Below are positions 36,303 through 52,383 of a DNA stretch of 52,384 nt, in pieces (the first letter of the stretch is position 1; each line of letters begins with the position of its first letter). A program made the translations under genes and the position numbers. The DNA is taken from assembly GCF_900141825.1 (NCBI RefSeq), contig NZ_FQYQ01000020.1, positions 1 to 52,384 on the forward strand. Direction: 5' to 3'. Below the pieces are notes generated by a model that had not been told where the DNA came from, made no database searches, and saw nothing but the letters and a program-made list of their open reading frames with translations. The stretch comes from Pseudobutyrivibrio xylanivorans DSM 14809. GTDB lineage: Bacteria; Bacillota; Clostridia; Lachnospirales; Lachnospiraceae.

Positions 36303-36332
36303 TAAGATGATTGTATTGGGTGGGTGAATGTT

Positions 36333-38132
36333 ATGCATAGCATTATTAGAAGATACAATGATCTTAAAATAGGCAAAAAGCTTATTATTATATTTTTACT
36401 AATATCTATAATACCTATTATTCTTTTGCAGGTATTTCATTTTACTAGTGTCAGGAAAACTATGACCTCTCAGGTGGATGAAATCATTCAAAGTGATTTA
36501 ATCCAGATTTCAGAGAGAACTAATCTCAGCCTAGAAAACTATACCAATTTAATGTACCAGATATATGTGGATGAGAATGTTATCGACCAGGTAATGATAC
36601 TGATGAACGGCACCCCTACAAGACGGGCGGCGGCTAAAAGCGATATTAGAGAGTTGCTTCATAGATACACAAGTGTGGTAGAAGGAGTGCGTTCTATCAG
36701 CCTGGTGTGTAAGAATGGGGAGTCGGTAACATACGATTTTGCCACAGATTCATCTATGTATAATATATGGAATCGATTTAAAGATATGAGAATAGCGCCA
36801 CCATACCTGGATGCGGAAAACAAATCTGGGATGGTCATTACTCCTAGTATGAAGTTTGATGAGAATGGAGTGAAAAAATACTATTTTCATATATCAAAGC
36901 GACTGTACAACTTTGACCAGTTGGAAAAAGGAAGTATAGCAACAGTCATAATGACTGTTGACGAAGAGGTTCTAAATACAATATGTAATTCATCTAAGGA
37001 GAGCAAAACAGGAATCAACTTCATCCTAGACGATGCTGGCAAGGTAATCTCATATCCTAGTGAAGCTTATGTAGCAATGAGCACTGGAGAAAACTTAGAA
37101 GCTTTCGTACGAGAAAGTGGATATTTACAAAGTAGCCATAATATAGGAATCAATAAATACAAGGATGAATCCACAGGGTGGACATTCGTAAATGCTTATG
37201 ACACAGATGAGATGCTAAAGGATGTTAGAAGGATTCAAATAATAACAGTGTTAATAAGCTCTATCATTATTGTTGTAGTGGGATTGATTATTTTTTACAC
37301 CACAAGGACCTTTAACAAATCCGTAAATACGATAGTGAAGGGAATGCAGACTGTTCAGGCAGGTGATTTGGACAAACGCATATCAGTAAAAAGTAAGGAC
37401 GAATTCGGAACAATCGCAGCTAACTTCAACATAATGACAGCCAGGGTAAAGGAGCTATTGCAACAAATATCATCTGCTAAGGATAGGCAGCGCCATGCGG
37501 AACTAAAGGCATTAGAAGCCCAGATAAATCCACATTTTTTGTATAACACACTGGATTCAATTAATTGGATGGCAATTGAGCATGGGGAAAATGAAATCAG
37601 TAAAGCACTTAGTAACCTGGGGTTGATATTAAGGCATTCAGTGAGCAAGGTGGAGGAAAAGACGCCTATAATTGCAGAATGTGATTTCCTTCAAAGATAT
37701 TTGGAGTTGCAGCAGATTAGATATGAGGGGGCATTTAAATATGAGATTAATATGCAGCCGGAATTAAAGAATCTATATATTCACAAGCTGCTTATTCAGC
37801 CATTTGTAGAGAATGCTATATTACATGGATTTGAAGGAATAGAAGAAGGTGGAATGCTTTCTATAAATATGGACATATCAGAGGATAACAGGTTCCTTCA
37901 AATAAGTATTGCAGATAATGGGAATGGAATTGAGGAAGAGCTTGTTAACAAAATGAATAATCGAGATGCAGTTATCAATGATGACAACATAGACAAAGCG
38001 GGGTTAGGCCTGAAAAATGCATTTTCAAGGCTAGTAATGTATTACGGAGGTATGGCTCATTGGAATATTAATAGTGTGGAGAAAATCGGAACTGAGATAA
38101 CATTGTATATTCCTAAAAGTGAGTGTGAGTAG
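36333..38132 (+). CDS. YesM-type sensor histidine kinase
   Basis: 599 residues. Membrane helix about 17-36, an extracellular Cache-like sensor (about 40-300), second helix about 305-325, HAMP (about 330-380) and a coiled coil. The kinase core is of the YesM/LytS type with phospho-acceptor His401 in INPHFLYN, and an ATPase domain with QPFVENAILHG (about 490) and GLGLKN (about 555). Such kinases usually control carbohydrate ABC transporters. GGGTGA five bases ahead of ATG 36333 fits; a GTG nine bases upstream is the alternative. The regulator gene starts 3 bp after the stop. Confidence 0.92.
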   Translation: MHSIIRRYNDLKIGKKLIIIFLLISIIPIILLQVFHFTSVRKTMTSQVDEIIQSDLIQISERTNLSLENYTNLMYQIYVDENVIDQVMILMNGTPTRRAAAKSDIRELLHRYTSVVEGVRSISLVCKNGESVTYDFATDSSMYNIWNRFKDMRIAPPYLDAENKSGMVITPSMKFDENGVKKYYFHISKRLYNFDQLEKGSIATVIMTVDEEVLNTICNSSKESKTGINFILDDAGKVISYPSEAYVAMSTGENLEAFVRESGYLQSSHNIGINKYKDESTGWTFVNAYDTDEMLKDVRRIQIITVLISSIIIVVVGLIIFYTTRTFNKSVNTIVKGMQTVQAGDLDKRISVKSKDEFGTIAANFNIMTARVKELLQQISSAKDRQRHAELKALEAQINPHFLYNTLDSINWMAIEHGENEISKALSNLGLILRHSVSKVEEKTPIIAECDFLQRYLELQQIRYEGAFKYEINMQPELKNLYIHKLLIQPFVENAILHGFEGIEEGGMLSINMDISEDNRFLQISIADNGNGIEEELVNKMNNRDAVINDDNIDKAGLGLKNAFSRLVMYYGGMAHWNINSVEKIGTEITLYIPKSECE

Positions 38133-38134
38133 GT

Positions 38135-39619
38135 ATGAATATAGTTATAGTTGAAGATGAAATCAAAATAAGAAATGGGTTATCCAGATTATTATCTAGC
38201 TATGGGGAACATGAAGTAATTGCCAAGGCGAAAAACGGTAGAGAGGGATTGGAAACCATAGAAAGCCTTCATCCTGATTTGGTATTCACTGATATTAAAA
38301 TGCCAGAGATGGATGGACTACAGATGTTAGAAGAAATAAAAAATCGCCAGATAAAATGCCATAGCGTAATACTTACAGGCTATGCAGAATTCGATTATGC
38401 CAAGCGTGCTATCACCTGCGGAGCAGATGATTATTTGCTTAAGCCGATTACCGTGGATGCGGTAGACGGTGTGCTAAAATCCATCTCTGCCAAGATTAGT
38501 GCAGAGGCCACTAGAATAGATGCAGACCCAGCATCTTACATTAGAGCAATAGTTTCTGGAGCTCTTGAAAACAATGATGAAAACATAGGTAAGGCTGAGC
38601 GGATTTTTGAATTATCAAAAGGATATGAATTATGCTTTTTAAGAGGATATAGCACAAGCGGATGCTTAGACAAGACTACCGTTATGGAAAAGTTTAAGGA
38701 ATATAAGGGCTTGTATGTATCTGAAGATAATAAGGATTTGTTCATGCTTTATGATAAGTCTACCGGAAAGTATTCATCTGACGAGGAAATAGTAGCCATG
38801 CTTGACCGCAGAATAGATGTTGTTGATTGTCTAAAGGATTCTGTGTGGTATGTGGCAAGCTTGTCCAGCTTGAAGGAGCTAAAGGATATTGCTCTTCAAT
38901 CTGATAAGAAATTTTTGGATGGAGAAATGGCAGGAACTAGAATTGTAGAAGACGGTAATAATATCGTATATACGGATTATAAATATAGTAAAGATACTGA
39001 AAAAGAAATAGAAAAAATACTTGTGAATAATGATGAGGAAGGCTGGCAAAAATGGAGTGATGGCTTTGCCAAAGGATTCATAGGAAAAGCCTACGATCCA
39101 TATTCTGTAAGAAGTGCATATCAAAGCCTTGCAGGGTTTATTTTGCAGCTTGCCATTAAAATATGGCCTGATAAAGGCAGACAGATTAGGGAATTAGATA
39201 CAGTAGAAAAGATATCAAGGGCAAAGCTGTTATCTGAAATAAAGGAATGCTTGGACGAGTCGGCAGCAGTAGTGTTTGCTGGTGAAGCTACCCGTGATGA
39301 TATTCACAATTATACTATACTAAAGGCAATAGCCTACATCAGAGAAAACTATGCTAACAAGATTTCCCAGGAGGAAGTAGCAAATTATTTGTCTATAACC
39401 CCAGAATATCTAAGCACTCTTTTCCATAGAGAAATGAATAAGAATTTCTCTTCATTTGTTAATGAGTTTAGAGTAAGTCATGCTAAGCGCCTGCTTACAG
39501 GCAGCAATCTGAAGATATACGAGATTGCAGAACAGGTAGGTTTTACAGATACCAAATACTTTAATAGAGTATTTAAGGATATAGAGGGAGTATCGCCTAA
39601 GGAGTTTAGAGAAAGATGA
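38135..39619 (+). CDS. YesN-type response regulator with AraC output domain
   Basis: 494 residues. Receiver 1-120 with Asp53 in TDIKMPEMDG; an undefined middle domain (about 130-385), as usual in this family; and two AraC helix-turn-helices at 395-494 (EEVANYLSITPEYLSTLF and YEIAEQVGFTDTKYFNRVF). Partner of the preceding kinase. The targets should be the transporter/GH127 operon that begins 1.3 kb downstream. Its stop overlaps the ATG of the lipoprotein binding protein (ATGA), making a kinase-regulator-binding protein unit. Confidence 0.92.
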   Translation: MNIVIVEDEIKIRNGLSRLLSSYGEHEVIAKAKNGREGLETIESLHPDLVFTDIKMPEMDGLQMLEEIKNRQIKCHSVILTGYAEFDYAKRAITCGADDYLLKPITVDAVDGVLKSISAKISAEATRIDADPASYIRAIVSGALENNDENIGKAERIFELSKGYELCFLRGYSTSGCLDKTTVMEKFKEYKGLYVSEDNKDLFMLYDKSTGKYSSDEEIVAMLDRRIDVVDCLKDSVWYVASLSSLKELKDIALQSDKKFLDGEMAGTRIVEDGNNIVYTDYKYSKDTEKEIEKILVNNDEEGWQKWSDGFAKGFIGKAYDPYSVRSAYQSLAGFILQLAIKIWPDKGRQIRELDTVEKISRAKLLSEIKECLDESAAVVFAGEATRDDIHNYTILKAIAYIRENYANKISQEEVANYLSITPEYLSTLFHREMNKNFSSFVNEFRVSHAKRLLTGSNLKIYEIAEQVGFTDTKYFNRVFKDIEGVSPKEFRER

Positions 39620-40818
39620 AAAAAGGTCTGAAACTAATAACACTGGCTATGTGCATGGCAATTACAAATACAGCCTGTGGAAGAAGTACTTCTGATGTGG
39701 AAAACACACCTGATGAAAAAGAACAATTGTTGATATGGTCTTACTATGAAACAGAAGCACAGGTTAATGGGCTGGATAAGTTAACAGCCAGCTTTAACAA
39801 AAGCCAGGACAAATATCAGGTGTCATGGGAGTATGTTCCAATGACAGAATTTGACAAGAAAATATCCAGAGCATATACAGAGCAAGAGCTTCCAGATGTG
39901 GTAATTATTGATAATCCTGATATGAAAAAATTCATTCAGCTGGATATGTTTGAAGATATATCTGAGTATGCCAGTACCCTTAATCTAGATACAGATTATT
40001 ATGAGGCATCTGTAGATACTATCAAATACAATGATAAATACTACGGAGTTCCGTTTAACAGCAACAATGTTTGTTTGATATATCGAAGTGATTTGTTAAA
40101 GGCGGCAGGTGTTACATCACCTAAAACCTGGGATGAGCTTAGTGAAACAGCAAAGCTATTATCAAAAGATGGCTCCTACGGATTCTTGATGAGTGCCATG
40201 GATTCTGAGCAAGGATCATTTCAGTTATTGTCATGGGTGATGGCTGCCTCTGATTCTGATACACAGCTTACCAGGGAAGCAATCAGTGAATCCTATGATT
40301 ATTTAGCAGGACTTATAAAAGATGGCTGTATGCCGGCGGATTGTCTTAACTACAGCCAAACAGATATTGCAAGAAGATTTATAGAAGGGGATATAGCTAT
40401 GATGGAAAACGGACCATGGGTTTTTCCTATGCTAGATGAAGCAGGAATTAGCTATGGCCTTTCACCTATGCCTATGAATAAAAGAAATGCAGTAATACTA
40501 GGTGGAGAAAACTTAGGAATAATCAAAGGTAAAAATGTAGAAGGCTCCATTGAGTTTATAAAATATTGCATGGAACAGGGCGGAACGGAAAGATTCTGCA
40601 GCGATGCAAATCTACTCCCATCCAGAATAAAATCAGCAAATAAAATAATAGTGGATAATCCTAAGCTGGAAATTATTAGTCAGCAAATGAATTATGCAAT
40701 TCCTCGCACAGGAATAGAGGGATATTCCAGAATATCCAAGCAATTACCTAAGAGCTTTGCAGATGTAGTGACAGGAGAATTAACACCAGAAGAAGCAGCC
40801 AGAAAAACTTTGAATTAA
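39616..40818 (+). CDS. Extracellular sugar-binding lipoprotein linked to the two-component system
   Basis: 400 residues, family 1 solute-binding protein. The signal peptide ends in a lipobox TNTAC with lipidated Cys21. It is a paralogue of the transporter-linked binding protein at 40951: both read (V/L)xIWxYxET(E/D)AQ at the mature N-terminus and share ELPDVVI and MxENGPW/MxQNGPW motifs. Because its ATG lies inside the stop of the response regulator and a terminator-like hairpin separates it from the permeases, it probably presents ligand to the kinase rather than to the transporter. That role is inference. Confidence 0.85.
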   Translation: MKKGLKLITLAMCMAITNTACGRSTSDVENTPDEKEQLLIWSYYETEAQVNGLDKLTASFNKSQDKYQVSWEYVPMTEFDKKISRAYTEQELPDVVIIDNPDMKKFIQLDMFEDISEYASTLNLDTDYYEASVDTIKYNDKYYGVPFNSNNVCLIYRSDLLKAAGVTSPKTWDELSETAKLLSKDGSYGFLMSAMDSEQGSFQLLSWVMAASDSDTQLTREAISESYDYLAGLIKDGCMPADCLNYSQTDIARRFIEGDIAMMENGPWVFPMLDEAGISYGLSPMPMNKRNAVILGGENLGIIKGKNVEGSIEFIKYCMEQGGTERFCSDANLLPSRIKSANKIIVDNPKLEIISQQMNYAIPRTGIEGYSRISKQLPKSFADVVTGELTPEEAARKTLN

Positions 40819-40871
40819 AATTTGGATGAATTTTTTCCACCTTTTTTAATTTATTAGAATTTTTTAAAATC

Positions 40872-40950
40872 AAAACCTCTCTTAGAATACTTATATAAAC
40901 AAAGGAGATACAAAGTATCTCAGGGGTAAGTATTCGAAGGGAGGTTTTTT
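40872..40950 (+). promoter_or_regulatory. Long terminator-like hairpin overlapping the RBS of the binding-protein gene
   Basis: The left arm 40872-40893 pairs with 40927-40948 over 21 of 22 positions (12 bp, one mismatch, 9 bp; one wobble). Inside it a second perfect hairpin GAGATAC/GTATCTC (40905-40911/40915-40921) forms. The right arm holds GGGAGG, the Shine-Dalgarno of ATG 40951, and runs into TTTTTT. It can act as terminator of the sensor operon and as a translational lock on the transporter operon. Confidence 0.65.
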
Positions 40951-42222
40951 ATGAGATTTAAGAAAGCCGTATCAATGGCATTAGCAGGGGCAATGGCAGC
41001 GTCACTTATGGTAGGCTGCGGTAGCTCAGAAAGTGTAACAGAAGCAACTGGTTCAGGGGAAGGAACACAGACAGCACAGGCAGGAGACAAGCAAGAGGTA
41101 GTTATTTGGGATTACTTTGAGACAGATGCTCAGAAGAAAATGATGGAATCCCTGATTAATGGATTTAACTCATCACAGGATGAATATGTAGCAAGTCATA
41201 CTTATGTACCATTTGCTGATTATGAGAAGCAGTTAACACTTGGTATTGCATCTGGCGAGCTTCCAGACGTAGTTATTCTTGATGGTTGCGATATGTCATC
41301 ATTCATTGCTATGGATTTGTTCGGTGATATTTCAGATGCCAACATAGATTGGTCAGAATACATTGAAGGTCCAATGAATTCTACAATGATGGATGGCAAG
41401 CATTATGGTCTTCCTTTTGCAACAAACTGTACAGCTCTTTTCTACAATAAGGATATTCTTGATGATGCAGGAGTTCCTTATCCAAATGAGAACACTACAT
41501 GGGACGAATTCCATGAGATGGCTAAGAAGCTTACAGATTATGGCGTAACAGGCTTTGGTAATGCAGCAATCGGAACAGATGAAGGTACATTCCAGTGCCT
41601 ACAGTGGTTATACACAGCAGGAGGTTCTTACACAGATATCGAAGCTGGTAAGGATGCATATCAGCTTATGCAGGATATGATTAACGACGGCTCTTGGTCT
41701 AAAGAGTGTGTAAACTGGGCTCAGACAGATGTATGTAATAACTGGAAAGCAGGAAACATTGCCATGATGCAAAATGGTCCATGGCAGATTCCTGGTATCG
41801 AAGCAGATGCTCCTGATATGAACTATGGTGTAACTGTCCTTCCTAAGAAGGATGCTTCAAGCGGCCAGGCTACATCTATTCTTGGTGGTGAAAACATGGG
41901 CGCTGTTAAGAAAGACAACATGGAAGGCGCCAAGGCATTCCTTGAGTACTACAATCAGACAGATGTTATGGTAGATGCAATGAAGCAGTATGGTTCATTC
42001 CCACCTAAGACAGAGGCAGCTAAGGATAGCTATTGGACAGATGATCCTATTCAGGCAGAGTTCATTACACAGCTTGAAACTTCTATTCCAAGAGGACCTT
42101 CACCAATTTGGCCTTCATATTCAAATGCAATTCAGACTGGTTTCCAGGAAGTACTTACACTTGCTAAGTCGCCAGAACAGGCTGCAAAGGATACACAGGC
42201 AGCAGTTGATGCCGTTAAGTAA
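40951..42222 (+). CDS. Sugar-binding lipoprotein of the arabinoside ABC transporter
   Basis: 423 residues. The lipobox is MVGC (lipidated Cys23). The family 1 binding fold is evident, with GELPDVVILDG (about 90-100), LPFATNCTALFYNKD (about 150-165) and MMQNGPWQIPG (about 271-281). It should capture the oligosaccharide released outside and hand it to the two permeases that follow. The gene is separated from them by a hairpin at 42234 that would keep the binding protein in excess, as usual. Translation starts directly after the long hairpin. Confidence 0.92.
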   Translation: MRFKKAVSMALAGAMAASLMVGCGSSESVTEATGSGEGTQTAQAGDKQEVVIWDYFETDAQKKMMESLINGFNSSQDEYVASHTYVPFADYEKQLTLGIASGELPDVVILDGCDMSSFIAMDLFGDISDANIDWSEYIEGPMNSTMMDGKHYGLPFATNCTALFYNKDILDDAGVPYPNENTTWDEFHEMAKKLTDYGVTGFGNAAIGTDEGTFQCLQWLYTAGGSYTDIEAGKDAYQLMQDMINDGSWSKECVNWAQTDVCNNWKAGNIAMMQNGPWQIPGIEADAPDMNYGVTVLPKKDASSGQATSILGGENMGAVKKDNMEGAKAFLEYYNQTDVMVDAMKQYGSFPPKTEAAKDSYWTDDPIQAEFITQLETSIPRGPSPIWPSYSNAIQTGFQEVLTLAKSPEQAAKDTQAAVDAVK

Positions 42223-42233
42223 GAAGTAACATT

Positions 42234-42263
42234 TGGCGGGGAAGTAATTCCCCGCCATTTTTA
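42234..42263 (+). terminator. Hairpin between binding protein and permeases
   Basis: TGGCGGGGAA (42234-42243) pairs perfectly with TTCCCCGCCA (42248-42257), then TTTTT. It is a partial terminator or mRNA-protecting hairpin of the kind found after binding-protein genes. Confidence 0.85.
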
Positions 42264-42288
42264 GAAATAGTTATTTTGGAGGGATGTT

Positions 42289-43203
42289 ATGATTTCTAGA
42301 AAAAAGAAGTTGAATGGACCAGGGAAAATGGGATTATTGTTTTCTCTTCCAGCAGTAATCTATATGCTTATCTTTGTTGGATATCCCACAATTTCAAATA
42401 TCATTCTTAGTTTAAAGAATGTTAATGTCTTTAATTTTTCAAGACCAGAGGCACAGGAATTTATTGGTCTTTCAAATTATGTAGAGTTATTTACAGATGC
42501 TAATTCTGTAATGAGTCGTGCTATTTTGAATACTTTAATATTTACTGTAGCTTCAATCTTTTTCCAGTTTATTATTGGATTTATACTTGCATTATTATTT
42601 AGTAAGAAGTTCCCAGCATCAGCATTTTTCAGAGGTGCAACAATGATATCCTGGTTGCTTCCAGTTACTGTAGCAGGTCTTTTATTTAAGTTTATTTTTG
42701 CAAGCTCAGGTGGTATAGCAAACCAGCTATTAATGCAATTGCATATTATTAAAACACCTGTTGATTGGCTATTGAATGGCCCAACTGCTATGGTGGCTAT
42801 TGTAGTTGCGAATATTTGGATTGGAATTCCTTTTAATATGATGTTACTGCTTACAGGTCTAACAACTGTACCAGCAGATATTTATGAAAGTGCAAAAATC
42901 GATGGGGCCAATAAGCTTCAGACTTTGTTTAAGATAACAATTCCAGTGATTAAACCAGCAATCATGTCTGTTTTAACACTTGGCTTCGTATATACCTTTA
43001 AAGTATTTGACTTAGTTTGGGTTATGACTAAGGGTGGACCAATCAATGCAACAGAATTGGCTTCAACATACGCTTACAAGCTGTCATTTGAACAGTTTGA
43101 ATTTAGTAAAGGCGCAGCTTCTGCAAACATTCTATTTTTAATTCTATTTGTAGTAGGAATGTTCTACATCAAGCTAATAAATGCAGAAGAGGAGGTAATG
43201 TAG
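42289..43203 (+). CDS. Sugar ABC transporter permease, MalF/UgpA type
   Basis: 304 residues, six membrane helices. The cytoplasmic EAA loop that contacts the ATPase is visible as YESAKIDGANKLQTLFKITIP-type sequence (about residues 198-218). A typical CUT1 inner membrane subunit. GGAGGGATG-type ribosome binding site. The next permease begins two bases after its stop. Confidence 0.92.
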   Translation: MISRKKKLNGPGKMGLLFSLPAVIYMLIFVGYPTISNIILSLKNVNVFNFSRPEAQEFIGLSNYVELFTDANSVMSRAILNTLIFTVASIFFQFIIGFILALLFSKKFPASAFFRGATMISWLLPVTVAGLLFKFIFASSGGIANQLLMQLHIIKTPVDWLLNGPTAMVAIVVANIWIGIPFNMMLLLTGLTTVPADIYESAKIDGANKLQTLFKITIPVIKPAIMSVLTLGFVYTFKVFDLVWVMTKGGPINATELASTYAYKLSFEQFEFSKGAASANILFLILFVVGMFYIKLINAEEEVM

Positions 43204-43204
43204 G

Positions 43205-44038
43205 ATGAAAAGAGAAAGAAAAGAAAACACCATAAGCTTTATCATTGGAGTGGTGATATTCGTTATCCTTATGTTTCCTCTATATTGGATGATTGTTACA
43301 GCCTTAAAAACACAGGTGGAAATCTTCCAGGTTCCTACTCCACTGTGGCCTAAAAACCTTACACTAGAAGCTTTCCAAAGCCAGTTTTCTGAATCATCAG
43401 CAACAATGAAGGGCTTTAAGAATAGCTTTCTTATAGCGTTTTCTTCAATGGTAATATCAACAGTATTGTCTATTCCAGCAGCATACGGTCTTGCAAGATT
43501 TAGATTTAATGCCAAAAAGCTGCTGATACTGTTTTTTTTAATGATGCAAATGTTGCCATCTACACTTATTTTGACACCACTTTACATTATGTTTTCAAAA
43601 GTGGGATTACTAAATAATTACTTAGCGCCAATCCTTGCAGATGCGACTTTGGGAATTCCCTTCTCAATCATCATTCTTCGTACTTATTTCCTTTCTATAC
43701 CAAAGGAGCTAGACGAGGCAGCGGCAATAGATGGCTGCAATCCGGTAACATCATTTTTTAAAATAATGTTGCCGATTGCAAAGCCAGGTGTGATTGTAGC
43801 AGCGGTGTTCTCATTTGTTTATGCATGGGGCGATTTGATTTATGGAATCACATTTATGACAGATCCAAATATGAGACCAATCACATCAAATATTTATAAT
43901 TATGTTCAGCAATATCAGACACTTTGGAATGCGACTATGGCATTTGGACTTGTAGCAATCTTCCCAATTGTGTTGATATTCATATTTATGCAGAAATACA
44001 TTGTTAGTGGACTTACAAACGGAGCAGTAAAGGCATAG
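43205..44038 (+). CDS. Sugar ABC transporter permease, MalG/UgpE type
   Basis: 277 residues, six membrane helices, with the EAA loop LDEAAAIDGCNPVTSFFKI (about 172-190). It completes the CUT1 transporter. No ATP-binding gene follows; CUT1 systems of Firmicutes commonly share one MsmK-type ATPase encoded elsewhere. The GH127 gene starts 9 bp downstream. Confidence 0.92.
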   Translation: MKRERKENTISFIIGVVIFVILMFPLYWMIVTALKTQVEIFQVPTPLWPKNLTLEAFQSQFSESSATMKGFKNSFLIAFSSMVISTVLSIPAAYGLARFRFNAKKLLILFFLMMQMLPSTLILTPLYIMFSKVGLLNNYLAPILADATLGIPFSIIILRTYFLSIPKELDEAAAIDGCNPVTSFFKIMLPIAKPGVIVAAVFSFVYAWGDLIYGITFMTDPNMRPITSNIYNYVQQYQTLWNATMAFGLVAIFPIVLIFIFMQKYIVSGLTNGAVKA

Positions 44039-44047
44039 GGGGAATAA

Positions 44048-46000
44048 ATGAAATATAATGCAAATTCATCAATTCCAATCAGCGACATAAAAATCACTGA
44101 TGAGTTTTGGAATAAGTACAGAGATTTAGTAGGAAAAGTAATCATTCCATATCAGTGGGATGTTTTAAATGACAGGTTAGAGGATGTTGAAACCAGTCAT
44201 TGCATTGAAAATTTTAAGATAGCGGCAGGTTTATCAAATGGGAAATTTGAGGGAGCAGTTTTCCAAGATACGGACCTTGCAAAATGGTTAGAGGCTGTTG
44301 GATTTTATCTGGCAGCCTATGGCTGTGATGAAAAGCTGGAAGCTATGGCAGACGAAGCTATAGATTTAATCGAAAAGGCGCAGCAGCCTGATGGATATTT
44401 AGATACATTCTTTATCATCAATGCGCCAGATAAAAAATGGAAGAATCTATGTGAAGGCCATGAATTATATACTGCAGGACATTTTATGGAAGCCGCAGTT
44501 GCTTATTATGAAGCTACAGGCAAAAGAAAAATTATAGACGTAGTATGCCGCTTGGCGGACTTGCTATGTGATGTTTTTGGTAAGGAAGAAGGTAAATGCC
44601 ACGGATACCCTGGACACCCAGAAGTAGAAGTAGGCCTTGTAAAACTTTACAGAGTGACGGGGGAGAAAAAATATCTGGATTTGGCAAAGCACTTTATTGA
44701 TATAAGAGGTGTAGGAGATAACTATTTTCTTGAAGAAGAAAAGCAGGAAGATTTTGAGAGAATCTTTCCAGAATTTATAAATTATGATCCTAGCTACAGT
44801 CAGTCCCATCTTCCAGTAAGACAGCAAAAAACTGCAGAGGGACATGCTGTTAGAGCAGCTTATTTGTATAGTGCTATGGCAGATGTAGCTGTAGAAACAG
44901 ATGATAAGGAACTGTTAGATGCCTGTAAGGTGCTTTGGGATGATATGGTTCACAGAAGAATGTATGTAACAGGCAGCATAGGCTCATCAGGTTGGTTGGA
45001 AAGATTTACAACCGATTATGATCTGCCAAATGATTGTAATTATTCTGAGAGCTGCGCATCCATCGGACTGGCTATGTTTGGAAAAAGAATGGGTGAAATC
45101 ACAGGGGAAGCTACATATTTTGATGAGGTAGAAAGAGCATTATATAACACAGTATTGTCGGGAATTGCTATGGATGGAAAAGGCTTTTTCTATGTAAATC
45201 CTTTGGAAGTTTGGCCAGCTGCATGTATGGACCACACTTCAAGACTTCATGTAAAAAGCGAGAGACAGAAATGGTTTGGCGTGGCCTGCTGCCCACCTAA
45301 TATAGCTAGAACACTTGCATCTTTGGGACAGTATATAGCATATAAATCAAAGAATAAGCTTTATTTGAATATGTATGTTTCATCTAAGATAAAGGCAGAG
45401 GTTTCAGGCAAGGAAGTCAGACTTGATATTAAAAGCGAAATACCTTGGAATGGCAAAGTATCAGTTCATGTAGAATCAGATGAACAAATGGAAGGAACGC
45501 TTGCACTAAGGATTCCATATTATGCAAAGAATCCAAAAATCAGCGTTAGCGGAGCAGGGCTTGATATGAAACAGGATAAAGGCTACATCAACATAACCTT
45601 GTCTAGTACAAGTATGGATGTAAGCTTTGAGTTTGACATGCCTGCAAGATTTGTACATTCAAATCCAAAGGTTAGAGCAGATGTAGGCAAGCTTGCAATC
45701 ATGAAAGGACCATTAGTGTATGCCTTAGAACAGGTAGATAATGGGGATAATCTAGCCAACATTTTTGTGTCCGGTAAAACAAAGCTGCAGGAAGAATTTG
45801 ACAATAACATCTTAGGGGGAACAACTAGAATAACATTCAACGCTCAAAGGATAAAAGAAGAAGGATGGGATTCTGGTAAATTATATGGTGAAGTGGAAAG
45901 TGATTTTGAGGAGGTGAAATTAACAGCCATCCCTTATTGCTATTGGGGAAACAGACAGAAGAATGAAGAGATGTTAGTTTGGATGAAGGAGAAGTTTTAA
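44048..46000 (+). CDS. GH127 beta-L-arabinofuranosidase, cytoplasmic
   Basis: 650 residues, no signal peptide. It aligns by motif with HypBA1 of Bifidobacterium longum (658 aa): Glu334 and Cys336 in YSESCASIG and the Cys414-Cys415 pair in GVACCPPN match the HypBA1 zinc ligands Glu338, Cys340, Cys417 and Cys418, and Glu318 in GWLERF matches the acid/base Glu322. The cysteine of CCPPN (Cys414) is the expected nucleophile. The (alpha/alpha)6 barrel covers about 1-430, the beta domains the rest. It releases L-arabinose from beta-1,2-linked arabinofuranosides. The lack of a signal means it works on imported substrate, consistent with its place after the permeases. Confidence 0.92.
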   Translation: MKYNANSSIPISDIKITDEFWNKYRDLVGKVIIPYQWDVLNDRLEDVETSHCIENFKIAAGLSNGKFEGAVFQDTDLAKWLEAVGFYLAAYGCDEKLEAMADEAIDLIEKAQQPDGYLDTFFIINAPDKKWKNLCEGHELYTAGHFMEAAVAYYEATGKRKIIDVVCRLADLLCDVFGKEEGKCHGYPGHPEVEVGLVKLYRVTGEKKYLDLAKHFIDIRGVGDNYFLEEEKQEDFERIFPEFINYDPSYSQSHLPVRQQKTAEGHAVRAAYLYSAMADVAVETDDKELLDACKVLWDDMVHRRMYVTGSIGSSGWLERFTTDYDLPNDCNYSESCASIGLAMFGKRMGEITGEATYFDEVERALYNTVLSGIAMDGKGFFYVNPLEVWPAACMDHTSRLHVKSERQKWFGVACCPPNIARTLASLGQYIAYKSKNKLYLNMYVSSKIKAEVSGKEVRLDIKSEIPWNGKVSVHVESDEQMEGTLALRIPYYAKNPKISVSGAGLDMKQDKGYINITLSSTSMDVSFEFDMPARFVHSNPKVRADVGKLAIMKGPLVYALEQVDNGDNLANIFVSGKTKLQEEFDNNILGGTTRITFNAQRIKEEGWDSGKLYGEVESDFEEVKLTAIPYCYWGNRQKNEEMLVWMKEKF

Positions 46001-46030: not shown

Positions 46031-49000
46031 ATGTCAAACACGAGAATGAAGAAAAAGGTTCTGTCACTTGCACTGGCTACGATTACAGCATTTACAACTT
46101 TGCCAGGGAGTATGGGGACAATCGATGTGCTGGCTAAGGAAGATAAGGCAACAAGTCAAACAAAGGCGACAGAGGAAGCAGATGGAAGCTACACATTATC
46201 CAATGATTATTTCTCTGTAAACATAGGTAAATACGGCCAGATTAGGAAGCTGTATATTGTGGGAGATAAATATCCTACAAACTATGTGATGAACGAAGAA
46301 AATGCTCCTGCTCAGGGGGCTAGCAGCACCCACCAATGGATGGGTGAGCTGATACTTGCAACTAAATTTGGTGATGGTGAATATAAAGAAGGATACACAA
46401 GCCAGTCCGACTCTGATAGAACCATCACTCTTAAGGATAACAAGGTAATAGTTACATACAGCGGAAAGGCAACTGAAGCTAAAGGAATAAACGGTTATCA
46501 GGTAAAGGAAACCTATACTCTTGTTAATGACAGGATAAAGTGGGATATCGAAATAGAAAACAAGAGCGATGAAGTTCTTACAGTAGGAGATTTAGGACTT
46601 CCAATTACATTTAACGAATACTGGTCTGGTGGAGATGAAATCTACGAAACAAGAGTAGTAGACCACAGCTTTGTGGGAAAGAATTCTTCATACATATATG
46701 CTACACGCCCTAGTGGACAGGGACAGTATGTATTACTTACTCCAGATGACGCAACGGATGCCAGTTTTGAATATCAGGATCACTGGAGAGTAGAGGAAAG
46801 AGCAGCTAACGAAAAATCATGGTGTCAGGATCAGGATGGATGGGCCAGCGGCCTGAATGTTTTCTATGTTCATTCAGATGTTATAAAGAAAACTAATCGT
46901 GGTTACCTTGATAACACAACATTAAAGTTAAAGAAAGGCGAGTCAAAGAAGTATTCTTTTGATTTTAGTCCAGTTGATAATGAAGAGGATATGAAGTCTA
47001 CCCTTTATGAAGAGGGAATTATAGATGCAGTGGCTGTTCCAGGTATGACCTTTGCCAAGAATATGCCAGCCAAAATGTATCTTCATACAAAATATGCTGC
47101 TAAGGATTTGAAGGTAAATATCAAATGTCCTCATGAGTTGAATCTATTTGATGATAATAAGAATAGTGTCAGCAACAATCTTCCATGTGAAAAAAGCGAA
47201 GCTGGCACTTATGCAAAGTACGAATCTACAAAGCTAATCGATGGAGAACAGTATCATATATACGATATTGCCTTTGATGATTTAGGTCAGAATGATGTAG
47301 TGGTTTCCTATGACAATGGAACAAAGGAAACTGAGCTACAATTCTATATCATGGATGATGTGAGCAAAGCATTGAATACTCATTCTCAGTTCATGGTAGA
47401 TAAGACCCAGTGGGATGCTGAAGGCGAGCTATATGATAAGGTTTTTGACGATTGGATGATGGACACCAAATCAAAGCGAGGTTCATTTAGTGGCTATTGG
47501 GGCTGGGGCGATGATTGGGGATTGACCCACGGTGAATATATCGCTGAAAAGAATGTTTACATCCCAGTAGAAAGGGAAATAACTGCAATTGATGAGTATT
47601 TGGATACTGCAATATGGCATGGACTTATGCAGGAGCATCAAGAGGATTATCTTATCCATGACTTCCAGATGAAGGAGCCAAATGATACACCTACATACAG
47701 AGGCTATGCATATCCTCACATATACAATACATACTATTCAATGTATAAGATTGCTAGTAAATATCCTAATATTGTAGATTACATCGAGGATAAGGATACT
47801 TATCTATTGAGAGCCTATAACATAATGAAGGCTCTGTATTCAGACGGTGTATATTACAACTGGTCTACAGGTGTAATGGGAGAGCTAACTACTCCTGACA
47901 TTATCGCCTCTTTAAAGGCAGAAGGATATACTGATGAGGCTGTTGAGATTGAAGATATTATGGCAAAAAAATATAAGAATTTCTCCAGCACAAAATATCC
48001 ATACGGCTCAGAGTATTCATACGATAATACAGGTGAGGAAGCTGTTTATACGCTGGCAAAGCTTAATCTTAAAACAGATGAGGCAAATGCCCTTAGCATG
48101 ATGCAGAAAATTGATTTGAAGACTAGAGCATGTAGAGGTCTTCAGCCTGTATGGTATCACTACGCTAATCCTACCACTATCTGTGGCGAAAGCTGGTGGA
48201 ACTTCCAGTATACAGCAGCACTTGCAGGATATTGCATGGATGATTATTTGCGACTTGAAAATAATGGATTAAATTCTGTAGATTCTGCCGAGGCAGAAAG
48301 AGTTAATTATGCTGCAAAGCTTGCAAATCTTACATGCATCAATTCAGGTCAGATAGATGCTGACCCAGAAAATATAGGTACCGTTGCCTGGACTTATCAA
48401 AGTGAAATGGGAAATCTAGGCGGACAGGGAACTGGAGGTGGAAAGATACACAACGGCTGGAGACAGATGGCTGGTGAAGCAGATTTGGGACTTTTTGGAG
48501 CGCTTCAAATTCTTTCCGCAGATGTAGCAACAGACCCAGTATTTGGTTTATTTGGTTATGGCTGTAATGTGGCTGATAATGGAGATAGCTATTCTATAAA
48601 GCCGCTTGACGGATTGAACACCAGATTAAACCTGATAGATGATGGTTGTTATGTAGAGCTTGATAGAGACAGATACGTAAATGCGATAATTACTAAGGAT
48701 TGCAGTGATGTAAAGCTTACTGTAACAAATTTAGAAAAGACAGAGCATAATACAGATATTAACTTAACAGGATTTGCAGATGGTTGCTATACCATTCTTG
48801 TTGATGGTAAAGAGCGCGGAACATTTAAGGCAGCAAAGAATCAGACTGTGAAAGTGTCAGTTCCTCTTGGAAAGAAAGATACATCAGAGGTTGAATTTAA
48901 GATTGGAGCAGCTGCAAAGAACACAGCTCCAATTGTAGATGCAGGTAATGATATTGAAACATATCTTCCAGAAGTAGATGGAATAGATGAGGCTACTATA

Positions 49001-52000
49001 GTCATTGACTTCAATCTTTCTGCAAATCAGGAGAATGGAACAAGACTTATCGAATTTGGTGATTTAGATGAAAACTACTTGTATGTGAGCTTTAAAGGAA
49101 ATAATCAGTTAAGCATCGCTGCTACTGATATGAAGTCAAAGAAGCTGAAAACAGTGGATACCGTATATGCGATAGCACCAGAATATGATAAGAAATTAGT
49201 ATTAACAAATGATAATGGAAATATTGCTGCTTACCTTGATGGAGATAAGATTGCTACATTAGATTCAGGCTTTGTATTTTCAGATTTAGGAGATGCTCAA
49301 AGAAACTATCTGGGACGCTCTCACGAGGAATCTATTAGCTTCTTAAATGGAAAAATCAAAGGCTTTAGTATGTATTCAAAAGCATTTGATGAAGAAGAGG
49401 TTTCAAAGCTTTTTGGAGAATTGAAGGATAGAGAAATTGTATCTATAAAGGATGCAGCAGTTGTAACTAAGATAAACGAAGCACCTAAACTTCCGAAAGA
49501 AGTTAGCGCCCTGTATTCAGATGGCGTATATAGAAATGTGGAAGTGAAATGGGATGAAGTATCTGCAGAATCTTATGGTGCTAAGGGCGTGTTTACTGTA
49601 GAAGGTTCAGTAGATAAATCTGCAGTTAAGGCCAAAGCTAATGTTGTTGTAGTTGATGGAAAAGAGGTAAATCTTGCAGCGTATGCAACACCTAGTGCTA
49701 TCGTAAACACTCCACAGGATTTAGGTGGTGTAGCTGGTTTAAATGATGGTTATGACCCATTGGCATCAAACGATACTTCACATGGTGTATGGCACAACTG
49801 GTTAGGAGGCGCTCAGGGCGCACCAGCATGGGTAACATACACATGGGATGATGAGGTTATCATCACAGGTCAGGACGCATATTACTTCAAGGATAATGGT
49901 GGTAATTTCTCACCAGCAGCTGTAAAGCTGGAGTATCTTGAGGGTGATGAGTGGAAGGAATGCGATATAGTAGAAGGTCTTGGAACAGAACTTGATAAAT
50001 ACAACACTACAACAATCAAACCTATTCAAACAACAGCGCTTAGAATGACTCTTAATCCTAAGACATTAGGCTGTGGTGTAATTGAGTGGAAAGTATACGG
50101 ATTTAAGGAAGGCGCTGTTGATAAGTCTGGATTAAATAGTGCTATTTCAAGAGCTGAAAAGATTGATCCATTCTTTGTTAAATCAGGATATGCTGATATG
50201 AAGTCTGTTTTGGCAGAGGCAAAGGAATTGGTTACAAAGATAGGTGTGTCTCAAAAAGAATTAGATGAGATGACCGACAGACTTAATAGTGCAGTTAATT
50301 CCCTGGATATGGATACTAATCTGGCTTTAGATGCTTCAGTTTCAACAAGCTATGTTTCTAGCTGGGAAACATTAGGTGCAGTCAATGATGGCGTGTCATC
50401 CTCAGCATCCATGGAAAAGCCAGCAACTGGTGCCTATGGTTCGTGGGGTAACACATCAGAATACGAGACCATTACATACACTTGGGATAAAAAGATAAGC
50501 ATTAGCAAATCAGCTATTTACTTCTGGAAGGATAATGATTCTGAGGAAGTAGTGGGAATTCAATTCCCTAAGAATTACACCATTAGTTACAAGGACGGTG
50601 ATGATTGGAAAGAGGTAAATGATGCATCGGGCTTTGGTCTGGAAGAGGATAAGTATAATGTAACATCCTTCAAGCCAGTTATGACTGATGGATTGAGAAT
50701 TCAGTTAAACAAAAAGGAAGCAAATAATTCAGGTGTAGGTGTAATTGAATGGGCAGTTCTAGGTGGTGAGCCAGTGGAAGAAGAGCTTGAAGAACTAGAA
50801 AAGGAAGATGTGGAAGAATTGCTAGAAAAGGATGTGGAGTCAGAAGAAAAGAAAGAAGAGAAGGACTCTGATATCGAAGACGCTAGTAAAGTACCTGCTG
50901 AAGAAGCTACTGAAAAAGATGCTGAAACAACAGAGGAAAACACAGATGAAGTGAAATCTGATACAGCAGAGGATTCTAAGCTGAAAGTTACAACAGATGA
51001 AGTAGTGCCAGAGGAAAAGATGACAGAATTAGAAGTAGCTACAGGAACAAACTTACTTTTAGGAGCTGTTGCAACTACAAGACTAAGAGCATCTGCTATT
51101 GATGATGGATATCCTAATTCTTCATTAGAATACAAGTGGACAGTAAAGAGCAAGCCAAACAATGCAGCAGTAGCTATAGACAAGGATAGTCAGGCAATCA
51201 CTGATGTAAGCTTTAATCAAGCTGGTAACTATGTACTTACACTTACAGTCTCAGATGGAGAGCTTTCAGCATCTGATGATATTAAGATTAAAGTATCAAA
51301 CGCTGATAAGTTTCCTGAAAAGCTATGTGAGTACGATTTTGCAGAAAAGTCATTAGACAAGAAAGCTAGATTAGTAAAGGATATCAATGATACTGGATAT
51401 GATTCAAGCTATAGCTACAATCCAAATCCTGTATTTGCAGCAGTGGATGGAGTAAGCTTTATTGACATGGCAGGAGGCTTCTGCGGATATGTTAAACTTA
51501 CAGATGAATTAACAAAGGGCAAGATAAAAGAAGACAAAACAAAGGAGCCTATCATTAATCCAGTTAATCCTTTCAAGCCATCGCAAGGTGGAAGCACAGG
51601 TACCACACCAGTTAATCATGAGGTAAACAAAGCTGTAAGCCCAGCAAAGGACATCACAGTAGTTGATACTCCTAAGGTGCCTGCTGCTGGAAACAATAAA
51701 GTTGCTAAAACAACTGATAAGGTAAAGGCAGCTAATAGCTCTAAGCAAAAGCCCGAAGCTGAAAGCAGTGTAGATGAGAAATTAGAAAATAGTAAAGATT
51801 CTACATTGGAAGATTCGGCTGAGAGCACATTAGAAGAGAATAATGAGCAATCAGAAGAAATCATATCTGATGAAGAAACACCTACTACAGGCGAGAAAAA
51901 AGATAGAAATGCAATTCTGATATTAATACTCGTTGCACTGGCACTAATTCTTGTAAGTGGCGGATATGTAGTATTCGCAAAGATATTAAAAAAGGGCAAT

Positions 52001-52006
52001 AAGTAA
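46031..52006 (+). CDS. Giant wall-anchored multidomain protein, candidate arabinan-acting glycosidase
   Basis: 1991 residues. Order: signal peptide to about 35; N-terminal beta-sandwich (about 50-330); helical barrel-like core (about 450-800, with WGWGDDWGLTHGEY near 490 and ICGESWWNFQ near 718); beta domain (about 830-960); start of a PKD domain (964-982); second half of a LamG jelly roll (983-1130); Ig-like (1134-1210); discoidin-like (1211-1362); FIVAR-like helices (1364-1424); second discoidin-like (1430-1578); acidic linker (1579-1666); rest of the PKD (1670-1757); first half of the LamG (1760-1827); linker; TPTTGE sorting signal (1950), membrane helix and KK tail. It resembles DUF5695-type proteins and, by synteny with GH127 and the transporter, HypBA2 (GH121 arabinobiosidase). 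The catalytic assignment is uncertain; surface location is clear. Confidence 0.7.
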   Translation: MSNTRMKKKVLSLALATITAFTTLPGSMGTIDVLAKEDKATSQTKATEEADGSYTLSNDYFSVNIGKYGQIRKLYIVGDKYPTNYVMNEENAPAQGASSTHQWMGELILATKFGDGEYKEGYTSQSDSDRTITLKDNKVIVTYSGKATEAKGINGYQVKETYTLVNDRIKWDIEIENKSDEVLTVGDLGLPITFNEYWSGGDEIYETRVVDHSFVGKNSSYIYATRPSGQGQYVLLTPDDATDASFEYQDHWRVEERAANEKSWCQDQDGWASGLNVFYVHSDVIKKTNRGYLDNTTLKLKKGESKKYSFDFSPVDNEEDMKSTLYEEGIIDAVAVPGMTFAKNMPAKMYLHTKYAAKDLKVNIKCPHELNLFDDNKNSVSNNLPCEKSEAGTYAKYESTKLIDGEQYHIYDIAFDDLGQNDVVVSYDNGTKETELQFYIMDDVSKALNTHSQFMVDKTQWDAEGELYDKVFDDWMMDTKSKRGSFSGYWGWGDDWGLTHGEYIAEKNVYIPVEREITAIDEYLDTAIWHGLMQEHQEDYLIHDFQMKEPNDTPTYRGYAYPHIYNTYYSMYKIASKYPNIVDYIEDKDTYLLRAYNIMKALYSDGVYYNWSTGVMGELTTPDIIASLKAEGYTDEAVEIEDIMAKKYKNFSSTKYPYGSEYSYDNTGEEAVYTLAKLNLKTDEANALSMMQKIDLKTRACRGLQPVWYHYANPTTICGESWWNFQYTAALAGYCMDDYLRLENNGLNSVDSAEAERVNYAAKLANLTCINSGQIDADPENIGTVAWTYQSEMGNLGGQGTGGGKIHNGWRQMAGEADLGLFGALQILSADVATDPVFGLFGYGCNVADNGDSYSIKPLDGLNTRLNLIDDGCYVELDRDRYVNAIITKDCSDVKLTVTNLEKTEHNTDINLTGFADGCYTILVDGKERGTFKAAKNQTVKVSVPLGKKDTSEVEFKIGAAAKNTAPIVDAGNDIETYLPEVDGIDEATIVIDFNLSANQENGTRLIEFGDLDENYLYVSFKGNNQLSIAATDMKSKKLKTVDTVYAIAPEYDKKLVLTNDNGNIAAYLDGDKIATLDSGFVFSDLGDAQRNYLGRSHEESISFLNGKIKGFSMYSKAFDEEEVSKLFGELKDREIVSIKDAAVVTKINEAPKLPKEVSALYSDGVYRNVEVKWDEVSAESYGAKGVFTVEGSVDKSAVKAKANVVVVDGKEVNLAAYATPSAIVNTPQDLGGVAGLNDGYDPLASNDTSHGVWHNWLGGAQGAPAWVTYTWDDEVIITGQDAYYFKDNGGNFSPAAVKLEYLEGDEWKECDIVEGLGTELDKYNTTTIKPIQTTALRMTLNPKTLGCGVIEWKVYGFKEGAVDKSGLNSAISRAEKIDPFFVKSGYADMKSVLAEAKELVTKIGVSQKELDEMTDRLNSAVNSLDMDTNLALDASVSTSYVSSWETLGAVNDGVSSSASMEKPATGAYGSWGNTSEYETITYTWDKKISISKSAIYFWKDNDSEEVVGIQFPKNYTISYKDGDDWKEVNDASGFGLEEDKYNVTSFKPVMTDGLRIQLNKKEANNSGVGVIEWAVLGGEPVEEELEELEKEDVEELLEKDVESEEKKEEKDSDIEDASKVPAEEATEKDAETTEENTDEVKSDTAEDSKLKVTTDEVVPEEKMTELEVATGTNLLLGAVATTRLRASAIDDGYPNSSLEYKWTVKSKPNNAAVAIDKDSQAITDVSFNQAGNYVLTLTVSDGELSASDDIKIKVSNADKFPEKLCEYDFAEKSLDKKARLVKDINDTGYDSSYSYNPNPVFAAVDGVSFIDMAGGFCGYVKLTDELTKGKIKEDKTKEPIINPVNPFKPSQGGSTGTTPVNHEVNKAVSPAKDITVVDTPKVPAAGNNKVAKTTDKVKAANSSKQKPEAESSVDEKLENSKDSTLEDSAESTLEENNEQSEEIISDEETPTTGEKKDRNAILILILVALALILVSGGYVVFAKILKKGNK
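48970..48977 (+). repeat. 8-bp direct repeat AGAAGTAG, left copy
   Basis: It marks the point where the PKD domain of the giant protein breaks off (after Val982) and the second half of a LamG domain begins. It has the same reading phase as the right copy. Confidence 0.5.
51031..51038 (+). repeat. 8-bp direct repeat AGAAGTAG, right copy
   Basis: It lies at the end of the acidic linker, where the remaining part of the PKD domain begins (Ala1670). The two copies are 2061 bp (687 codons) apart and in the same codon phase. Confidence 0.5.
51038..51511 (+). other. Displaced domain segment: rest of the PKD plus first half of the LamG
   Basis: Residues 1670-1827 hold what is missing between residues 982 and 983. 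The DDG (1691-1693), YKWT (1701) and DGELSASDD (about 1742) motifs complete the PKD begun at 964-982. CEYDFAE (about 1765) to GYVKLTDEL (1819-1827) is the usual opening of a LamG jelly roll, whose continuation starts at 983. Confidence 0.6.
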
Positions 52007-52065: not shown

Positions 52066-52383
52066 CTAGGCTGAACACATGGATGCTATCCTGTATTGTA
52101 CAGGTGGCATCCATTTTGTTTTTGCCTGAATTCTTTTGTTATTGTAGTAATCTATATATTCTTCAACTGCCTTTGAGAATTCTTCAAAAGAAGAATAGTC
52201 TTTCTCATAACCATAGTACATTTCGTTCTTTAATCTTCCAAAGAATGTCTCCATTATACAGTTATCATAACAGTTACCTTTTCGAGACATAGATTGGATA
52301 ATGCCATGCTCTTGTAAAGCAGTACGATAATAAGTATGTTGATACTGCCAGCCCTGATCGGAATGAAAAATAAGTCCTTTAAC
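52066..52383 (-). CDS. IS3-family transposase OrfB, C-terminal part
   Basis: 105 residues visible, 5' end outside the window. The second catalytic Asp is in IFHSDQGWQY (first residues), the SRKGNCYDNCIMETFFGRLK segment carries the DDE Glu, and YIDYYNNKRIQ is the usual C-terminal element of the IS150/IS3 integrase core. The reading frame is intact to its TAG at 52066. No frameshift is visible in this part, so the element could be active if the left part is complete. Confidence 0.9.
   Translation of the reverse strand, partial: VKGLIFHSDQGWQYQHTYYRTALQEHGIIQSMSRKGNCYDNCIMETFFGRLKNEMYYGYEKDYSSFEEFSKAVEEYIDYYNNKRIQAKTKWMPPVQYRIASMCSA
52081..52122 (+). terminator. Hairpin in the IS end stopping + strand transcription
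   Basis: GGATGC with inner CCTGTA pairs with TACAGG and outer GCATCC (52081-52112; TTG loop), then ATTTTGTTTTT. It overlaps the transposase C-terminus and would end transcripts from the giant gene before they enter the element. Confidence 0.55.

Follow-up and report, generated by a model that had tools for sequence, protein, structure and literature searches.

In-frame exchange of two adjacent gene segments divides a PKD and a LamG domain in a giant DUF5695 surface protein of Pseudobutyrivibrio xylanivorans

The case for exchanges of internal segments that cut through protein domains often rests on remote similarity of structure. Among the described systems, the GH70 glucansucrases and GtfB-type glucanotransferases possess permuted parts, and in the account given in PMC4919382 several of their domains are assembled from two distant stretches of a chain that follows a U path. 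In concanavalin A and favin, as outlined in PMC3320104, the order of two parts is reversed, and PMC2096629 deals with non-cyclic permutations, in which internal segments are reordered beyond a simple rotation of the chain. Here, a related rearrangement is described for a giant surface protein of Pseudobutyrivibrio xylanivorans DSM 14809, encoded at 46031..52006 on the forward strand of contig NZ_FQYQ01000020.1; the stretch analysed, referred to below as the window, is this entire contig of 52384 bases. The open reading frame is uninterrupted throughout, and its product of 1991 residues belongs to the DUF5695 family (PF18951; Pfam score 176.7 bits against a gathering cut-off of 25.2, E 8.7e-52). 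A literature search on permutation, segment swapping, LamG and Pseudobutyrivibrio surface enzymes did not find this case in the titles and beginnings of abstracts listed, which is not proof of its absence, and a search on DUF5695 led to a title on fungal velvet regulators and found no work on its function.

In the window protein, a block of 148 residues, comprising a PKD domain minus its first strand and the first third of a LamG jelly roll, sits 700 residues downstream of its normal place. The corresponding block of approximately 148 codons has traded places, in frame, with the approximately 700 codons that followed it, and the block is now flanked by an acidic linker predicted to be disordered and a low-complexity tail that precedes the C-terminal anchor. 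The split is also seen by Pfam, which reports DUF5695, a start-less LamG, Big_4 and then, about 550 residues past LamG, a start-less PKD: LamG_3 begins at profile position 19-20 of 151 and PKD at position 11-12 of 84, later than in the three normal-order homologues given to Pfam, in all of which LamG begins at position 3-5 and PKD at position 1. The initial annotation had recognized the severed PKD opening as NTAPIVDAGNDIETYLPEV at residues 964-982 (DNA 48920-48976) and the LamG remainder as DGIDEATIVIDFNL from residue 983, followed by LIEFGD (1006-1011) and GKIKGFSMY (1107-1115), with GYVKLTDEL (1819-1827) in the displaced block; all of these peptides sit where it had placed them. The gene and its segments A to D are as follows.

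46031..52006, + strand: gene of the 1991-residue DUF5695 surface protein with permuted architecture (open frame; Pfam DUF5695)
46328..48820, + strand: segment A, DUF5695 head, residues about 100-930 (Pfam; ratio of nonsynonymous to synonymous change, dN/dS, 0.052)
48920..48973, + strand: end of segment A, first strand of PKD, residues 964-981, severed from its domain (profile positions up to 47)
48974..48979, + strand: A/B junction, V982-D983, surplus relative to normal-order homologues (alignment)
48980..49414, + strand: start of segment B, later two thirds of LamG, residues 984-1128 (profile match; Pfam Laminin_G_3 from position 19)
49442..49645, + strand: segment B, Big_4 Ig-like domain, residues about 1138-1205 (Pfam 1139-1196)
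49658..50116, + strand: segment B, first discoidin-like domain, residues 1210-1362 (homologue identity; fold matches)
50126..50344, + strand: segment B, helical spacer, residues 1366-1438 (helices predicted in the model)
50348..50806, + strand: segment B, second discoidin-like domain, residues 1440-1592 (within an NCBIfam HypBA2 stretch, 1443-1642)
50807..51073, + strand: end of segment B, acidic linker predicted to be disordered, including the B/C junction, residues 1593-1681 (low predicted local distance difference test, pLDDT)
51074..51298, + strand: segment C, displaced, PKD lacking its first strand, residues 1682-1756 (Pfam K319L-like PKD from position 11)
51299..51517, + strand: segment C, displaced, first third of LamG, residues 1757-1829 (profile match to position 190)
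51518..52003, + strand: segment D, low-complexity tail and hydrophobic C-terminal anchor, residues 1830-1991 (sequence)

The helical spacer is presumably a FIVAR module, a name that no search returned, and we take segment D to be a wall anchor with a sortase-type TPTTG motif. The first discoidin-like domain shares 51-60% identity with its counterpart in four homologues, and the fold matches of the model include CBM32 and factor V/VIII structures.

The GH70 enzymes are the nearest analogue of this protein, which would work like them without being a family member; no Pfam family of the GH70-type permuted GH13-type barrel was found in it at E up to 1. Both are bacterial and multi-domain, with exchanged parts and with relatives that lack the permutation. 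In contrast to the GH70 enzymes as presented in PMC4919382, where the permutation involves the catalytic core and crystal structures are available, the cuts here fall in two accessory domains, the displaced block lies by a linker, and the arrangement is known from sequence and a model. LamG_3 is filed by Pfam in the concanavalin A-like superfamily, and the reversal of two parts is shared with concanavalin A and favin; however, the permutation is post-translational in the account of PMC3320104, whereas here it is genetic and leaves about 630 residues between the parts. The reordering of internal segments likewise recalls the non-cyclic permutations, for which the natural case covered in PMC2096629 rests on the structural similarity of different proteins, whereas here sequence homologues represent the states before and after.

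DUF5695 proteins with the same modules occur in Clostridium, Butyrivibrio, Robinsoniella and Paenibacillus, the closest being 60-70% identical in the head. Named genomes were scanned with the window protein aligned to five relatives, which gave 138 relatives, the best 80 of which were kept as 79 loci; with the loci of whole-genome searches added, small profiles were used to map 93 proteins that match the DUF5695 part. Removal of identical copies left 83, and setting aside two short fragments that hold the C-terminal part only (G023 and the second contig of G006) left 81 for the count of domain order. PKD precedes LamG, with starts 147-170 residues apart, in all 40 homologues outside Pseudobutyrivibrio in which both domains were detected, whereas the LamG part precedes PKD in seven, all from Pseudobutyrivibrio, to which the window adds an eighth case; in the other 34, one or both domains went undetected (LamG only in 9, PKD only in 13, neither in 12). 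The first third and the remainder of LamG were both detected in 30 proteins and are adjacent in 22 and far apart in the seven from Pseudobutyrivibrio; in the last of the 30 (L117), the sole first-third match falls in a later stretch. Because the normal order spans Clostridium, Butyrivibrio, Paenibacillus, Streptomyces and others, the swapped order is derived, and it arose on the line to the copies in Pseudobutyrivibrio, which are rumen bacteria, from an ancestral normal order. The in-frame exchange of two adjacent segments proposed in the initial annotation is thus borne out, together with its direction, by the mapped homologues and the profile alignment. The objection that the annotation had anticipated, that PKD and LamG would be continuous elsewhere and the pieces complete domains in their own right, holds in its first half, but the pieces in the window are not complete domains themselves. 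As a separate observation, one metagenome-assembled genome (MAG; G006) contains two contigs (L009 and L026) with the 3' part of the gene, identical at 290 of 299 residues, which may represent two gene copies or mixed strains.

The joints can be located closely. Against a profile built from the 40 normal-order proteins, residues 936-981 correspond to positions 2-47 and residues 983-1205 to positions 189-410, and the displaced block ends at residue 1830, position 190. When the pieces were cut at 981/1682 and 1829/984 and entered as separate rows into the alignment, they abutted with no residue missing and two extra (V982 and D983), so that the exchange lost no homologous residue at the joints, which are identical in all eight sequences compared. 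The two parts of LamG, each homologous by sequence, therefore stand in reversed order, as in a circular permutation, and the two parts of PKD, 964-981 and 1682-1756, are both present and in order around an insert. In the structure prediction, strands begin at 1681 (segment C) and 987 (segment B), and a short helix ends at 1829.

The DNA at the joints offers less guidance on the route taken. The 8-bp direct repeat AGAAGTAG is indeed found at 48970 and 51031 in the same codon phase, and of the two copies of GAATTA noted with it, one lies at 51506 as reported but the other at 51026 rather than 51027. The joining points given in the initial annotation are correct to within a few residues; however, a join at the repeat would leave the 12 residues 1670-1681 with no counterpart in homologues. 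The downstream copy of AGAAGTAG is present in the window and two other sequences only and is missing in five of the eight, which have GAAGAAG instead, and AGAAGTAG was rejected as a recombination scar. Short repeats do not exceed chance here, since 2642 of 7027 comparable stretch pairs in the gene have one or more 8-mers in common; between junctions, the longest common word has 8 nucleotides (B/C with C/D), a length that is reached in 4.7% of random pairs and was one of three comparisons. A repeat scan found two repeats that touch a junction and none that links two junctions: a 40-nucleotide direct repeat of 73% identity from the C/D junction to the 3' end of the gene (51483-51522 and 51960-51999), which may be chance, and a 15-nucleotide inverted repeat of 93% from the A/B junction to the second discoidin-like domain (48965-48979 and 50516-50530). 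Two routes were considered, a single cut and paste and a duplication after which each part lost one of its copies; none of the proteins and genomes examined showed a duplication intermediate. Residues 1671-1683 were considered either as a remnant of the opening of a third discoidin-like domain or as a degenerate PKD start.

The initial annotation had also allowed for an assembly artefact, a suspicion invited by the position of the window's end at a contig end, adjoining what we take to be an IS3-type gene. This explanation was rejected because the same order recurs in seven other separate assemblies (four named strains and three MAGs), whose proteins are 93-98% identical and whose synonymous sites have diverged, the swapped sequences differing there by close to 0.3 across much of the gene; moreover, no repeat pairs two junctions clearly beyond chance. 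An artefact is extremely improbable on this evidence, and the comparison of assemblies indicates that the exchange is a real evolutionary event. Very unlikely, too, is that block C never moved and that, after deletion of the original, another gene supplied a copy of a similar PKD-LamG piece. LamG_3 matches do occur in 17 of the 29 genomes of the genus, many in other proteins, but block C fills the gap in the DUF5695-type alignment exactly, and in a search of 195 relatives it matched this gene (nine genomes), then a DUF5695 protein of G046 (3.7e-10), and all others at 3e-4 or weaker.

Selection since the exchange was estimated as dN/dS pooled over pairs among the eight swapped sequences, with no significance test. 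Besides the low value in the head, the ratio was 0.019 in residues 955-982, 0.077 in the LamG remainder, 0.115 in Big_4, 0.051 and 0.025 in the discoidin-like domains, 0.312 in the helical spacer, 0.108 in the PKD rest and 0.163 in the LamG first third; the values of 0.66 in the acidic linker (1593-1665) and 0.62 in the tail (1830-1940) are inflated because the synonymous difference is low there. The same picture emerges, with no ratio involved, from the codons that vary in amino acid: 1 of 18 in the old PKD strand, 17 of 145 in the LamG remainder, 10 of 75 in the PKD rest and 15 of 73 in the LamG first third, compared with 20 of 73 in the linker and 49 of 111 in the tail. These comparisons indicate purifying selection on the domain pieces since the swap. 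In a tree of five of the eight swapped proteins and 14 normal-order ones out of the 40, the stem of block C measured 0.128 relative to the rest and that of the LamG remainder 0.144; both values fall among those of the unmoved parts (0.096 for the head, 0.096 and 0.125 for the discoidin-like domains and 0.163 for Big_4), and there was no burst of change on the stem. Core hydrophobic columns are retained at 7/7 in segment A, 24/25 in C and 36/38 in B, and segment A also retains 5/5 near-invariant columns. Because of the low dN/dS, the few variable codons, the normal stem and the retained core columns, the parts look to be functional and to have undergone some drift or adaptation. The synonymous difference among the eight sequences is itself uneven: over much of the remainder it is roughly 0.2-0.4, but it falls to about 0.045 at 50831-51070 (residues 1601-1680) and to about 0.09-0.14 in the tail, and the low value at 50831-51070 may reflect recent recombination or a constraint at the DNA level.

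These selection and core-column data also fit with the split domains being completed between neighbouring chains, segment C docking on the LamG of the next protein and so linking surface proteins. Segment C, placed in the model beside a long disordered linker, could reach a neighbour; on general reasoning, however, a partner within the same chain is present at a much higher local concentration, and pairing between chains is considered unlikely.

Whether the pieces meet within one chain was approached with AlphaFold2 on residues 950-1836, with an alignment of 33 rows (seven of the eight swapped sequences, 14 homologue fragments for block C and 12 for segment B), and with a control model of block C alone built from the same 14 rows and the same seven sequences. 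In the context model (predicted template modelling score, pTM, 0.55), the LamG remainder reaches a pLDDT of about 91 with block C present, and the acidic linker has ten-residue means of 43 or less. Over residues 1760-1829, the LamG first third, the ten-residue values are 82, 60, 80, 81, 67, 72 and 85 in context (mean 75) and 59, 57, 68, 58, 61, 50 and 59 for block C alone (mean 59), lower in 7/7 blocks, whereas over residues 1680-1759, in the PKD rest, they are 68, 60, 90, 83, 79, 86, 82 and 75 in context and 80, 65, 93, 91, 89, 89, 86 and 79 alone, higher in 8/8. Within block C, the gain in confidence is thus limited to the LamG first third, which is what would be expected, if only indirectly, were it to pack on the remainder. 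The old PKD strand was left unplaced, with block means of 32-35 and all of 959-982 below 50; that stretch had just seven near-identical alignment rows, and the result may speak against rebuilding or reflect the thin alignment. A PDB search returned, among the 50 matches listed, mostly multi-domain enzymes and discoidin-like modules and gave no verdict on LamG.

Besides the unplaced strand, several observations weigh against the rebuilding of both domains within the chain. The pLDDT comparison is a single pair of models that reports confidence values rather than contacts, at a pTM of 0.55. Core positions 1053, 1060 and 1683 have been lost, block C retains 18 of 23 near-invariant columns (0.78), a share above that of 2 of 11 homologues, and segment B retains 19 of 27 (0.70), below all 11 (0.71-0.96), which points to some weakening or adaptation in the pieces, more so in B. 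Furthermore, a substitute or duplicated start of PKD may lie in the linker, because the downstream profile match runs back over 1643-1681, beginning at residue 1643, position 12, in the window and at positions 41 and 38 in two relatives (L060 and L057); before residue 1682 this match is weak and passes through the linker. Such a start would suit an alternative in which the swap is real, LamG was lost as a unit, PKD completes itself with a local first strand, and 984-1128 persists as a reduced sandwich. In its favour, segment C modelled alone has short strands at 1665-1667 and 1673-1675 ahead of PKD, and the high confidence of the LamG remainder comes from a model in which the partner is present; the unplaced old strand and the reduced share of near-invariant columns in segment B count towards it as well. 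However, the would-be local strand at 1666-1681 varies freely (4 of 16 codons variable in amino acid; dN/dS 1.84, from very few changes), in contrast to the old strand with its single variable codon, and it is the LamG first third, not PKD, that gains confidence from the rest of the chain. This alternative is regarded as doubtful.

The likeliest mode of working, to which we assign a probability of about 0.6, is that the split domains are rebuilt within one chain. The chain would fold back by way of the acidic linker, which is long and could give a return path, and the block would dock into its old place, where strand 964-981 could complete PKD and residues 984-1128 could complete the LamG jelly roll. 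LamG would then be circularly permuted, its two parts connected by about 630 residues, PKD would be split by an insert of 700 residues, and Big_4 and both discoidin-like domains would form a closed side loop off the line from head to anchor. The functional permutation suggested in the initial annotation is favoured by the selection and confidence data but is not proven by them. More tentatively, the split jelly roll may serve as a clasp, in which the wall-proximal third of LamG snaps into the head-proximal two thirds, loops out the sugar-binding modules and possibly opens under pull; such a clasp might hold the discoidin-like, probably sugar-binding modules beside the DUF5695 head.

The gene follows, in this order, genes for a histidine kinase, a response regulator, two solute-binding proteins, two permeases and a GH127 enzyme; positions 36324-46000 and the giant protein gene form one conserved locus, in which the solute-binding proteins are related and in tandem. 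This neighbourhood is unchanged in six of the seven swapped relatives, the contig of the seventh being too short to tell, and a GH127 gene is present in 6 of 12 outside loci tested, among which flank lengths vary. The presence of GH127 and sugar transport genes at the locus, and of GH127 in half of those outside loci, suggests a role in the use of plant arabinofuranosyl sugars, and the DUF5695 head might work together with the adjacent GH127 enzyme on beta-L-arabinofuranosyl plant glycans. The gene is patchy in the genus, with the gene or a clear fragment in 9 of 29 Pseudobutyrivibrio genomes, the window's included. Immediately after it, a transposase fragment, presumably of IS3 type by its sequence, occupies 52066-52383 at the contig end; it was absent from 19 homologous loci searched, seven of them in swapped relatives. 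A search of a defence library gave no match at E <= 0.001.

In this family, homologues preserve both the state before and the state after a domain-cutting exchange, its joints can be placed to within a few residues, and the selection that followed can be measured. The protein offers a clear natural example in which to examine how such permutations arise and whether a domain survives once its parts lie 700 residues apart. If the clasp is true, it would be a natural split-protein latch that came from one in-frame exchange of gene segments.

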